Source of the DNA: Mangrovicella endophytica
Lineage (GTDB): Bacteria > Pseudomonadota > Alphaproteobacteria > Rhizobiales > Rhizobiaceae
Direction: 5' to 3'
Length of the DNA stretch: 64,000 bases
Assembly: GCF_002893625.1 (NCBI RefSeq)
Contig: NZ_PKMZ01000008.1
Coordinates: 89,944-153,943, forward strand
The notes below the pieces were generated by a model. The model was given only the letters and a program-made list of their open reading frames with translations, was not told the origin of the DNA and ran no database searches. Of this stretch, positions 46,544 through 58,684 are shown in pieces (position 1 is the first letter of the stretch; each line of letters starts with the position of its first letter). The position numbers and the translations under genes were made by a program.

Positions 46544-47464
46544 ATGTCGCAACCAGTGTCGCGAGAGACATTGACGCATCTGCAGCGGCTGGAGGCTGAG
46601 GCCATCCACATCATGCGGGAGGTCGCTGCGACCTTTTCCAAGCCAGTGATGCTCTATTCGATCGGCAAGGACTCGTCGGTGATGCTGCACCTGGCGATGA
46701 AGGCCTTCTATCCGGCCAAGCCACCCTTCCCACTTCTGCACGTCGACACGACCTGGAAGTTCCGCGAGATGATCGCCTTCCGCGACCAGACCGCGCAGGA
46801 GCTCGGTCTCGATCTCATCGTGCATGTCAATCCGGACGGTATAAAGCGCGGGATCAATCCCTTCGACCATGGCTCGAACGTGCACACGCATGTCATGAAG
46901 ACCGAAGGCTTGCGGCAGGCGCTCGACCAGCATGGCTTTGACGCTGCCTTCGGCGGCGCCCGGCGGGACGAGGAGAAGTCCCGTGCGAAGGAGCGTATCT
47001 TTTCCTTCCGCAATGCCCAGCACGGCTGGAATCCGAAGGATCAACGGCCGGAGATGTGGAAGGTCTACAACACCCGGATCTCCAGGGGCGAATCGATCCG
47101 GGTCTTTCCGCTGTCGAACTGGACCGAGCTCGACATCTGGCAATACATTCTGATGGAGAACATCCCGATCGTCCCGCTGTATCTCGCGGCACCGCGCCCG
47201 GTGGTGGAGCGCGATGGCATGCTGATCATGAGGGATGATGACCGGATGAAGCTCGCGCCAGGCGAAACGGCGCAGCAGCGGATGGTCCGCTTCCGCACTC
47301 TCGGCTGTTACCCGTTGACGGGCGCGATCGAATCCGAGGCGGCAACGCTGCCGGCTATCCTGCAGGAGATGCTGATCGCACGGACGTCCGAGCGGCAGGG
47401 GCGGTTGATCGACAAGGATGAAGCCGGATCGATGGAGAAGAAGAAGCGCGAGGGTTATTTCTGA
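46544..47464 (+). CDS. cysD: Sulfate adenylyltransferase subunit 2
   Basis: 306 residues. PP-loop ATPase motif SIGKDSSVMLHL, then DTTWKFREM and GGARRDEEKSRAKER, ending KKREGYF. It makes APS from sulfate and ATP with CysN. It starts the cysD-cysNC-cysQ operon: cysNC begins 2 bases after its stop. No reductase genes (cysH, I, J) follow; a sulfotransferase fusion does, which points to PAPS for sulfation rather than assimilation alone. Confidence 0.96.
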   Translation: MSQPVSRETLTHLQRLEAEAIHIMREVAATFSKPVMLYSIGKDSSVMLHLAMKAFYPAKPPFPLLHVDTTWKFREMIAFRDQTAQELGLDLIVHVNPDGIKRGINPFDHGSNVHTHVMKTEGLRQALDQHGFDAAFGGARRDEEKSRAKERIFSFRNAQHGWNPKDQRPEMWKVYNTRISRGESIRVFPLSNWTELDIWQYILMENIPIVPLYLAAPRPVVERDGMLIMRDDDRMKLAPGETAQQRMVRFRTLGCYPLTGAIESEAATLPAILQEMLIARTSERQGRLIDKDEAGSMEKKKREGYF

Positions 47465-47466
47465 GC

Positions 47467-49380
47467 ATGGACGGTCGGCTTGATTCCGCCGTCGGCGACC
47501 CTGCAGCCGCCGACATCGCCGCCTTTCTGCGCGAGCAGGAACATAAATCGCTCCTGCGCTTCCTGACTTGCGGCTCGGTCGACGACGGCAAGTCGACGCT
47601 GATTGGCCGCCTCCTCTACGATACGAAGCTGATCTTCGAGGACCAGCTGTCGGCGCTGGCGAACGACAGCCGCAAGCATGGCACAACAGGCGACGACATC
47701 GACTTCGCATTGCTCGTCGACGGGCTCGAGGCCGAGCGCGAACAGGGCATCACCATCGATGTCGCATATCGCTTCTTCGCCACCAAGCGCCGCAAGTTCA
47801 TCGTCGCGGATACGCCCGGGCACGAGCAATATACCCGCAACATGGCGACCGGGGCCTCCACTGCGGACCTTGCCGTGGTGCTGGTGGACGCGCGCCAGGG
47901 GATGCTGCCGCAGACGCGCCGTCACAGCTTCATCGCATCGCTGCTGGGAATCCGGCGGATCGTGCTGGCGGTCAACAAGATCGACCTCGTCGGCTTCGAT
48001 CGTGCCGTGTTCGACCGGATCGAAACCGAATACCGCAGCTTCGCCGAGGCGCTGGGATTTGCCGGCATCACCGCGATTCCGATCTCGGCGCGCTACGGCG
48101 ACAATGTCACGGCGCGCTCCGATTCGATGCCCTGGTATCAGGGGCCATCCCTGCTCGAGCATCTGGAAACGGTGCCGGTCGAGGATTTCGCCGCCGATCA
48201 GCCCTTCCGGTTCCCCGTCCAGTATGTGAACCGGCCGAACCTCGACTTCCGCGGCTTCTGCGGCACCATCGCCGGCGGACGGATCGCCGTCGGAGATCCC
48301 GTCGTCGTCGCAAAATCCGGCCGCGCCTCCACCGTCAAGCGGATCGTCGTCCAAGATGGCCTGAGGACCAGCGCGCGCGAAGGCGAGGCCGTCACCATCG
48401 TCCTCGATGACGAGACGGAGCTGTCGCGCGGCAACATGCTGGTCGCGCCGGATGCGCGGCCCGAAGTCGCCGATCAGTTCGCCGCTCACATCGTCTGGTT
48501 CGACGATCATGCGATGATCCCCGGCCGCTCCTACCTGCTGAGGACCGAAACCGATCAGACGACAGCGACGGTCACCGAGCTGAAATATCGCATCGACGTC
48601 AATCATCACGGACACGAGGCGGCGAAGTCGCTTGAGATGAACGAGATCGGCGTCTGCAACATCTACACGCAGGAGCCGATCGCGTTCGACGCCTACAAGG
48701 CCAACCGTGCGACCGGCGGCTTCGTGCTGATCGACAGGGTCAGCAATCGGACGGTCGGCGCCGGAATGATCGATTTCGCGCTGCGCCGCGCCTCCAACGT
48801 CCACTGGCAGGCGATCGAGATCAGCCGGCGCGAGCGGGCCGAGCAGAAGCAGCAGCGGCCGGCCGTCCTGTGGTTCACCGGCCTGTCCGGGTCAGGCAAA
48901 TCGACCATCGCCAATCTTCTCGACAAGAAGCTCTTTGCGGCCGGCAAGCACACCTACATCATCGATGGCGACAATGTTCGCCACGGCCTCAACAAGGATC
49001 TCGGCTTCACCGAGGAGGACCGCGTCGAGAATGTGCGCCGGGTCGCCGAGGTGGCGCGGCTGATGGCCGACGCCGGGCTGGTCGTGCTGGTCTGTCTGAT
49101 CTCGCCCTTCCGAACCGATCGGCGGATGGCGCGCGACCTGATGGGGGACGGCGAGTTCATCGAGGTCTTCGTCGATACGCCTTTCGAAGAATGTGCGCGG
49201 CGTGACCCGAAGGGCCTTTATGCCAAGGCACTGAGCGGGCAGATCCGCAACTTCACCGGCGTCGACTCTCCCTATGAGGCGCCGGAGGCGCCGGAGATCA
49301 AGCTCTCCACGACGGGACAGCGGCCCGAAGACCTCGCCGAAGCGATCGAGACCGAACTGCGTTGGAGAGGCGTGATCTGA
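47467..49380 (+). CDS. cysNC: Bifunctional sulfate adenylyltransferase subunit 1 / APS kinase (CysNC)
   Basis: 637 residues. N-terminal GTPase CysN with GSVDDGKST (36-44), DTPGHEQYTRNM and VNKIDLVGF; C-terminal APS kinase from about 460, with its own P-loop GLSGSGKST (472-480) and the IDGDNVRHGLNKDLGF segment. The two halves couple APS synthesis to its phosphorylation to PAPS, as in rhizobial NodQ. Its stop overlaps the cysQ start (TGATG). Confidence 0.96.
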   Translation: MDGRLDSAVGDPAAADIAAFLREQEHKSLLRFLTCGSVDDGKSTLIGRLLYDTKLIFEDQLSALANDSRKHGTTGDDIDFALLVDGLEAEREQGITIDVAYRFFATKRRKFIVADTPGHEQYTRNMATGASTADLAVVLVDARQGMLPQTRRHSFIASLLGIRRIVLAVNKIDLVGFDRAVFDRIETEYRSFAEALGFAGITAIPISARYGDNVTARSDSMPWYQGPSLLEHLETVPVEDFAADQPFRFPVQYVNRPNLDFRGFCGTIAGGRIAVGDPVVVAKSGRASTVKRIVVQDGLRTSAREGEAVTIVLDDETELSRGNMLVAPDARPEVADQFAAHIVWFDDHAMIPGRSYLLRTETDQTTATVTELKYRIDVNHHGHEAAKSLEMNEIGVCNIYTQEPIAFDAYKANRATGGFVLIDRVSNRTVGAGMIDFALRRASNVHWQAIEISRRERAEQKQQRPAVLWFTGLSGSGKSTIANLLDKKLFAAGKHTYIIDGDNVRHGLNKDLGFTEEDRVENVRRVAEVARLMADAGLVVLVCLISPFRTDRRMARDLMGDGEFIEVFVDTPFEECARRDPKGLYAKALSGQIRNFTGVDSPYEAPEAPEIKLSTTGQRPEDLAEAIETELRWRGVI

Positions 49381-57603: not shown

Positions 57604-57832
57604 TGGATCGACGGAGCAAGAACAACCACACCAACCTGTTCAACGTCAATCACGGAACAGGTTCGCGTCTGTAACGGCAAGCCTTCGGATGATCAGGTCG
57701 ATGGGACCCAACGCTGCCGAGATGCCGCCGCGAGAATCTGTTGGCAGCGGCCAGCCGCAACGTCATGGCTCGGAGCATACATACCCTCGCCCTGCGTCTC
57801 GCAAGCGCCAGGGCTACGCAAGGGTCGACCGC

Positions 57833-58684
57833 TCAGGCGATCATGAAATCCTCGTTGAAGCCCGGGCGGTAGTGCGGACGGAACAGTACGGCGACGGACT
57901 CGAAGGATTTCCGGTAGGCGGCTCTCCGCGCATCACTGATCCCGTCGTCCACCTCATATAGATGAGGGCTATCTTCAGACGCGCGATACATGGCCTGCAC
58001 AACGGCACGATGATGGTCGTCGGACAAGCCGATGCGGTTGATCGCCCGCATCACCTCGATAAGCGGGGCGGGAAGACTCCTGTTCGCCGCGTCCCTGTCG
58101 ATCTCCTGCTTCATCGAACTCGGATCCGCTCCGATCATCACGCTGAAATCGCTCAAGAGGGTTCCACCGACCCACTGATCCTGATCATACGGTGCCACAA
58201 TGAAGCGCCATGGCTTGCCCGGGCCTATCCATCGCTTGAATATGCTGATGTAAGTCGGATCATAGGGGAGCTTGGCATCGAGGCTGTCGGTCCAGCGATG
58301 CGTACTGTCGCGTACGATTTCGTTGTAAGCTGAGATGACGATATCATCCGGTCTGCGAACATAGCCGATGACTAGAGTCTCAAGTCCGCGCAGTGACTCC
58401 TGGAACGCGACTTCGCGGAAGGGGTGCTCGCTGAAGCATTCGGAGCTGAAGAGAATCGTCGAGCATCCTGCCCGCTCGCCATCTTCGATGCATTCGTGAA
58501 TCGCAGCCGAGCCCGCTTGTCCGCTGCGCTGAAAGTCCTGCGCAAGGGGCGAGTGGTTCATGTGCCCCGCCGAGGGAGCATACCAGATGCCCTGAACGGC
58601 GAGTTCGTCACGGTTCTTGCTGAGGAAGGCCTGAATTGCGGACGTTCCGGTCTTATGAGCACCAACGTGAAAAATCAGACGCAT
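57833..58684 (-). CDS. Sulfotransferase family protein
   Basis: 283 residues. It opens with MRLIFHVGAHKTGTSAIQAF, the PAPS-binding loop of a sulfotransferase, and continues to GYVRRPDDIVISAYNE, the likely 3'-phosphate-binding stretch. It transfers sulfate from PAPS. The start is ATG at 58684; GTG at 58714 adds ten residues, and neither has a clear ribosome site. It is the second sulfotransferase within 8 kb of the PAPS genes. Confidence 0.85.
   Translation of the reverse strand: MRLIFHVGAHKTGTSAIQAFLSKNRDELAVQGIWYAPSAGHMNHSPLAQDFQRSGQAGSAAIHECIEDGERAGCSTILFSSECFSEHPFREVAFQESLRGLETLVIGYVRRPDDIVISAYNEIVRDSTHRWTDSLDAKLPYDPTYISIFKRWIGPGKPWRFIVAPYDQDQWVGGTLLSDFSVMIGADPSSMKQEIDRDAANRSLPAPLIEVMRAINRIGLSDDHHRAVVQAMYRASEDSPHLYEVDDGISDARRAAYRKSFESVAVLFRPHYRPGFNEDFMIA

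Follow-up and report, generated by a model that had tools for sequence, protein, structure and literature searches.

The locus examined here lies in a 64,000-nucleotide stretch of the Mangrovicella endophytica genome (contig NZ_PKMZ01000008.1, hereafter the window) and comprises a run of sulfate-activation genes, cysD, cysNC and cysQ, followed by genes presumed to act on a glycan, the first of which encodes a very long fusion protein (hereafter the giant protein). The three sulfate-activation genes are closely packed, with a gap of 2 bases between cysD and cysNC and an overlap of 1 base between cysNC and cysQ (the ATG of cysQ lies on the stop codon of cysNC), and each exceeded the cut-off of its own NCBIfam model. 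CysD, CysN and the adenosine 5′-phosphosulfate (APS) kinase were all above their family cut-offs, as in modules of the CysDNC/NodPQ type. The giant gene follows cysQ after a gap of 161 bases, and its stop codon is overlapped by the start of an epimerase gene; beyond these lie (i) a minus-strand pair, for a methyltransferase and a second predicted sulfotransferase; and (ii) an acyltransferase gene on the plus strand. The window ends with the contig, 3.8 kb past the acyltransferase gene, and Pfam was run on the genes from cysD to this end. The initial annotation had described the cysD-cysNC-cysQ run, the giant fusion 161 bases on, the epimerase, the methyltransferase, the second sulfotransferase and the acyltransferase, and all were found to be present; it made no mention of the minus strand of the methyltransferase and second sulfotransferase genes, and the acyltransferase gene lies outside the end it had set for the locus. 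Promoter and terminator scans gave no excess over shuffled sequences (3 versus 2.8 expected and 9 versus 8.6 expected, respectively).

Table 1. Features of the locus and further second-type sulfotransferase-like genes of the same genome (aa, amino acids; GT, glycosyltransferase; PAP, 3′-phosphoadenosine 5′-phosphate; SAM, S-adenosylmethionine)
Feature	Coordinates	Strand	Evidence
cysD, ATP sulfurylase small subunit	46544..47464	+	NF009214 547.5 bits (cut-off 413); TIGR02039 535.2 (396.6)
cysNC, ATP sulfurylase large subunit with fused APS kinase (kinase domain aa 465-613)	47467..49380	+	NF004035 1052.7 bits (715); APS_kinase PF01583 227.9 bits
cysQ, PAP phosphatase	49380 (ATG)..50180	+	TIGR01331 292.7 bits (228.8); start read from sequence
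Giant gene, 1745-aa fusion: predicted sulfotransferase, coiled coil, WbsX, GT4, GT2	50342..55579	+	Pfam and NCBIfam domains; relatives
Predicted N-terminal sulfotransferase domain of giant (aa 27-246)	50420..51079	+	weak Sulfotransfer_3 match, fold and motif
Coiled-coil-like spacer of giant (aa ~316-510)	51287..51871	+	SMC-type match below cut-off; heptad z 4.9 over 77 residues
WbsX domain of giant (aa 756-1095)	52607..53626	+	PF14307 436.2 bits
GT4-type glycosyltransferase domain of giant (aa 1285-1439)	54194..54658	+	PF00534 92.8 bits
GT2-type glycosyltransferase domain of giant (aa 1464-1595)	54731..55126	+	PF00535 77 bits
NAD-dependent sugar epimerase/dehydratase	55579..56550	+	PF01370 142.6 bits
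SAM-dependent methyltransferase	56734..57603	-	PF13649 38.6 bits
Second predicted sulfotransferase, without Pfam family	57833..58684	-	fold and motif
Membrane acyltransferase (Acyl_transf_3)	58971..60200	+	PF01757 96.6 bits
Seven further second-type genes	L234:11850-13601, L234:17586-18818, L236:15736-16581, L238:9611-10450, L239:10073-10969, L240:9376-10164, L241:9219-9911		

Both sulfotransferase assignments are predictions that rest on fold and motif. Against the Sulfotransfer_3 cut-off of 27, the N-terminal domain of the giant protein scored 25.8 by hmmscan (below) and 27.4 in the genome search (above), and Pfam gave no match to the second protein. In predicted structural models, each was found to have a sulfotransferase fold with predicted PAPS-binding motifs for the 5′- and 3′-phosphates. 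Foldseek results for the second protein were mixed, with a GPN-loop GTPase ranked first and 3rnl second. For the remainder of the giant protein, WbsX had no match among solved structures at E 0.01, and the region of aa 546-740 had no relatives among the collected loci.

A second sulfate-activation set was found on another contig (C10), as a minus-strand run of cysI-DUF934-cysH-cysD-cysN (DUF934 by eye), in which cysD is 71% identical to that of the window and CysN (594 aa) is without an APS kinase. Genome searches with PF01507 matched the window cysD and the C10 cysD and cysH, while PF01077 (sulfite reductase) matched C10 only; thus, the window yielded neither cysH nor cysI, in agreement with the initial annotation, which had reported no gene for reductase of sulfite or 3′-phosphoadenosine 5′-phosphosulfate (PAPS) nearby. 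The arrangement expected of an assimilatory locus, in which ATP sulfurylase genes adjoin cysH and a sulfite reductase gene, was accordingly seen on C10 only. The assembly is rated 99.99% complete, and the genome search for APS kinase returned the window cysNC at 231 bits and one weak match elsewhere. A candidate second APS kinase on contig C31 (L014:1312-2880, minus strand) was rejected as an AAA_33/APH-type protein, though above the Pfam APS_kinase cut-off (22.3 versus 21.1). This C31 protein could be misannotated as APS kinase. Judged by these matches, the search found no true APS kinase in the genome other than the window cysNC. The CysH of C10 narrowly passed the TIGR02055 APS_reductase model (239.5 versus a cut-off of 235.3, a margin of about 4 bits) and failed TIGR02057 PAPS_reductase (148.6 versus 254.2); rhizobial CysH is described as favoring APS in the portion of a review considered here (PMC6192434). 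Since the only true APS kinase is in the window and the C10 set is kinase-less with an APS-reductase-like CysH, cysteine synthesis in this genome should bypass PAPS, and the C10 set would serve it. The proposal that the window module is distinct from a cysteine-biosynthesis set, which called for a search for a second cysDN and for cysH and cysI elsewhere, is thereby strengthened. In addition, the C10 CysN (L009:5195-6979, minus strand) is extended at its C-terminus, past the part matched by the CysN models, by about 105 residues that include hydrophobic stretches.

Overall, the locus, with the genome's only true APS kinase beside predicted sulfotransferase and glycosyltransferase genes, most likely supplies PAPS for the sulfation of a surface polysaccharide (a probability of about 0.7), and we infer that a surface glycan bears the sulfate. 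In the proposed mechanism, CysDNC would convert sulfate to PAPS and CysQ would remove the PAP by-product, while the C-terminal WbsX, GT4 and GT2 domains of the giant protein would extend the glycan. The N-terminal sulfotransferase, spaced from these domains by the coiled coil, may add sulfate to the end of the growing chain, plausibly capping it and so stopping elongation, and further tailoring of this glycan could fall to the epimerase, the methyltransferase, the second sulfotransferase and the acyltransferase. Seven sulfotransferase-like genes located elsewhere in the genome probably draw on this PAPS pool as well. Eight genes of the type of the second sulfotransferase (second-type genes) were detected here, the most among 151 family genomes, in a count favored by a profile that includes proteins seemingly of this genome (P0003-P0005), and seven of the eight are on contigs other than that of the locus. 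The earlier description of the module as self-contained is therefore not supported; with these further genes scattered on other contigs, the module looks like the PAPS source of the cell and not a private supply. The second-type gene at L239 is about 70 bp from a gene weakly like the window acyltransferase (30% over 155 aa).

Comparison of the block in related genomes, among which the window genome was the only one of its genus in the set searched, was based on 40 hand-chosen APS-kinase loci. Seventeen other genomes carry the giant's sulfotransferase domain, and 16 of them were used (G129 was omitted because its cysNC lies at a contig end), along with 4 WbsX-bearing genomes and 20 others; flanks were about 6-10 kb per side (shorter on one side in L164, L180 and L193). 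For Mesorhizobium, which is Phyllobacteriaceae in NCBI, we take the GTDB family name to be Rhizobiaceae. At these loci cysD was matched in 37/40 (not L167, L170 and L173) and cysQ in 31/40, and matches to cysH, cysI and DUF934 were found in 0/40. By comparison, the kinase-less cysDN had an adjacent cysH in 20/20 two-set genomes (loci hand-chosen from the matches listed), and no match to APS kinase or cysQ was detected in the stretches around these 20 loci. The clustering with cysH and cysI in relatives that the initial annotation had named as refuting its reading was thus not seen at the APS-kinase loci. The placement of cysDNCQ next to the giant gene is not conserved. The genes around cysDNC were surveyed in 79 of 117 downstream and 77 of 119 upstream proteins (mostly shorter open reading frames were dropped by hand, and the 25 commonest families were considered), and the counts carry no background rate: DegT aminotransferases were found in 8 downstream and 4 upstream, epimerases in 7 and 9, an O-antigen ligase domain in 7 of the 77 upstream, and PfkB sugar kinase, the commonest downstream family, in 17 of the 79. 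Several genomes share a recurring order of bioY, a variable stretch, cysDNC, cysQ and pfkB; in Mesorhizobium B2-4-15 the variable stretch holds a WbsX giant gene together with second-type sulfotransferase and methyltransferase genes. The surface-polysaccharide link proposed at the outset is supported by these neighboring genes in relatives.

The occurrence of sulfotransferases was also found to follow that of APS kinase. A strong APS kinase (E below 1e-10) was present in 111/151 family genomes overall, in 18/18 of those with the giant's sulfotransferase domain (p 0.0037) and in 22/23 of those with a second-type sulfotransferase (p 0.009); the domain search scored 3 candidates per genome and the second-type search 15, and the Fisher and binomial tests used here are uncorrected for phylogenetic relatedness. 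Outside this genome, 5/38 second-type genes were within 25 kb of cysNC compared with 0.39 expected. Several observations weigh against a dedicated supply of PAPS at this locus. The G086 genome has a second-type gene and only a weak APS kinase match. Neither sulfotransferase type was found in the 40 APS-kinase loci of relatives (about 6-10 kb each side), and APS kinase was in reach at only 3 of the best 80 giant-type loci (L045, L060 and L073); conserved adjacency of cysDNCQ and sulfotransferase was thus ruled out for both searched types. The CysH of C10 also passed NF002537, named phosphoadenylyl-sulfate reductase (250.6 versus 154), such that, with the narrow pass of TIGR02055, the sequence does not settle its substrate; furthermore, both sets make APS, and the split between them need not be strict. 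In ten checked family genomes (G128, G030, G148, G062, G035, G142, G032, G129, G104 and G054), cysDNC was the only ATP sulfurylase found (one match each, E 1e-60), and it must therefore feed cysteine synthesis too and cannot be dedicated there. The sole cysDNC of these ten genomes, the NF002537 match and the unconserved adjacency favor an alternative in which cysDNCQ is the ordinary locus of the family, serving every use of sulfate, and the glycan genes are adjacent by chance. Base composition leans the same way: G+C at third codon positions was 0.69-0.80 in the glycan genes (0.69-0.75 in the epimerase, methyltransferase, second sulfotransferase and acyltransferase genes at 55579-60200), compared with 0.84 in cysNC and 0.86-0.88 in sdh-like genes, as if the glycan genes were later acquisitions. 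We nonetheless regard general-purpose activation as unlikely, given the separate cysI-cysH-cysD-cysN set of this genome, with a kinase-less CysN and a CysH that fits the APS-reductase model, the second-type sulfotransferases near cysNC more often than expected, and the glycan genes near cysDNC in relatives.

A public-genome scan for relatives of the giant protein gave at least 549 loci, of which the best 80 were used, a selection that skews the census to query-like proteins, sulfotransferase included. The full WbsX-GT4-GT2 core was found in 78 of the best 80 loci, with 27 fronted by a sulfotransferase, 25 with a short N-terminus and 26 with other N-termini (one genome is counted twice, as L055 and L126). 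Among 25 non-sulfotransferase N-termini scanned, about 5 matched methyltransferase (strongly), 4 GT2, 2 PIG-L and 1 Sulfotransfer_2. Family members occur in records named Rhizobiales, Vibrio, Verrucomicrobiaceae and Planctomycetota (several are metagenome-assembled genomes). By a crude test, heptad-like stretches of at least 60 residues were detected in 19/28 sulfotransferase-type linkers (window included) versus 12/28 other long N-termini, and such stretches vary widely in length in the giant-type linkers. The closest whole-module relative, the Mesorhizobium L050 cluster, has a sulfotransferase-bearing giant gene, an epimerase (60% identical to that of the window and in the same position), a second sulfotransferase and a methyltransferase; it starts with rmlA/C/B/D-like genes (by eye) and has an ATP-binding cassette (ABC) transporter ATPase gene near its other end. 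The methyltransferase is 53-55% identical in L050, L053 and L055, near the second sulfotransferase. In Mesorhizobium L055, L051-L054 and L080, the core was observed behind an N-terminus of another kind, which replaces the sulfotransferase; that of L055 has weak matches to methyltransferase families, below cut-offs. APS kinase was present in 26/27 sulfotransferase-fusion genomes versus 17/23 without the fusion (p 0.039), in a comparison of all 27 fused genomes with 23 hand-picked from the 51 other full-core entries, some of them metagenome-assembled. That PAPS is made mainly for the scattered sulfotransferase-like genes (e.g., for sulfolipids or small molecules), with the giant protein modifying something else or being inactive, would suit the eight second-type genes and their placement, seven of them outside the locus, yet is less probable still, as the sulfotransferase domain of the giant protein retains the residues that do not vary in an alignment of 23 rows and the fusion genomes nearly always carry APS kinase.

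Within the preferred reading, PAPS supply for surface-polysaccharide sulfation, the giant protein itself has the layout of a terminator-polymerase: an N-terminal modifying enzyme, a coiled coil (by the crude test) and C-terminal glycosyltransferase modules in one chain. Genes like wzt were in reach at 18/27 sulfotransferase-fused loci versus 13/26 and 9/25 in the other groups, and a same-strand wzt at most 700 bp upstream was found at 9/27 sulfotransferase-fused loci (eight at most 60 bp) versus 2/26 and 0/25. The Wzt_C domain was present in 10/10 wzt genes scanned, nine of them from close upstream pairs. When the C-terminal 190 residues of 25 long Wzt proteins were compared, mean identity was 0.293 within the sulfotransferase group versus 0.169 between groups, whereas the polymerase core of the same loci gave 0.509 versus 0.497; the C-terminal effect persisted once the ATPase part and the core had been regressed out (permutation p 0.0012). 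The nearest C-terminal relative was of sulfotransferase type in 10/13 sulfotransferase-type cases (not L059, L066 and L073; L073 was relabeled by hand as sulfotransferase type for a separate sulfotransferase match between its wzt and WbsX genes), as it was for 5/12 of other-type domains. The Wzt C-terminal domain thus tends to track the sulfotransferase; the ATPase part also differs by group (0.623 versus 0.527), which makes joint transfer of wzt and sulfotransferase an alternative. Together, the fusion census, the close wzt genes and the tracking by the Wzt C-terminal domain suggest sulfate as a chain-terminating cap. A more specific model, which we hold tentatively and at somewhat less than even odds, is that a single polypeptide, the giant protein, acts as both polymerase and terminator and ends its polysaccharide with a sulfate cap, with the coiled coil setting chain length, the carbohydrate-binding domain of Wzt reading the sulfate before export in relatives, and the PAPS module directly wired to the capping enzyme in this genome. 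Counting against it here, no Wzt-like match was found in the window (the rest of the genome was not searched, and no flippase or polymerase search was made), and the ABC ATPase of L050 has 247 aa and no Wzt_C match. At L070, where the sulfotransferase domain is 45% identical, a Wzt_C-bearing gene is nearby.

If these readings are correct, the genome is likely split in its use of sulfate, with sulfur for cysteine passing by the APS route and sulfate for decoration by the PAPS route, which is testable by single gene deletions. The census points to a widespread family that fuses a sulfotransferase to a putative polysaccharide polymerase. Were sulfate the chain-end cap, it would join methyl, phosphomethyl and 3-deoxy-D-manno-oct-2-ulosonic acid (Kdo) as cap chemistries, and chain-length control by a charged end group would become testable. 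Beyond the locus, a type I secretion-like pair (an HlyD-like and an ABC protein) and a glycine-rich repeat protein truncated by the contig end were noted on the minus strand at 60190-63996; the repeat protein resembles by eye an RTX-type substrate of type I secretion, and Pfam matched nothing in it.

Among known systems, the sulfate-activation module is most readily compared with nodPQ/cysDNC of Mesorhizobium loti and Sinorhizobium meliloti, where, in the part of the review considered, NodPQ/CysDN yield APS and PAPS, CysH prefers APS and M. loti nodPQ mutants lose sulfated polysaccharide (PMC6192434); unlike those systems, the run here includes cysQ and lies next to a gene for a sulfotransferase/glycosyltransferase fusion. 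The sulfation branch of Mycobacterium tuberculosis is similar in using APS reductase for reduction, CysNC for PAPS and CysQ for PAP, and differs in the one cysDNC operon described for it at the branch point (PMC3141025), compared with two ATP sulfurylase sets here. The giant protein shares its layout with WbdD, WbbB and ORF6-O7, the coiled-coil terminator-polymerases of ABC-transporter-dependent O-antigens, and some of its relatives have a Wzt_C-bearing wzt just upstream; it differs in its sulfotransferase N-terminus and extra WbsX, and in that no wzt was found in the window. In the sections considered, Klebsiella O7 ORF6 is described with an N-terminal methyltransferase-kinase, a central coiled coil and two C-terminal glycosyltransferase modules, and in systems of this type a module on the transporter recognizes the terminal moiety; within the main text of the same source no word starting with "sulf" was met (PMC11231755). 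In the O-antigen gene table of Aeromonas salmonicida A450, Wzt is followed by a hypothetical sulfotransferase-domain protein and then by WbbB, all three as separate genes, and the sulfotransferase-domain gene is not among the six mutants named in the portion considered (PMC4483657). Literature searches for WbsX with sulfotransferase and for WbdD with sulfotransferase returned none, and a search on fused sulfotransferases gave nothing relevant. A 2019 paper in Glycobiology (doi 10.1093/glycob/cwz066), by its title a bioinformatics census of the chemistry of chain termination in glycans, may already list sulfotransferase terminators, and we therefore make no claim of being first in print. Unless that census has already named it, the sulfotransferase-bearing polymerase is the newer part of this locus, set beside a PAPS module of an already known kind.

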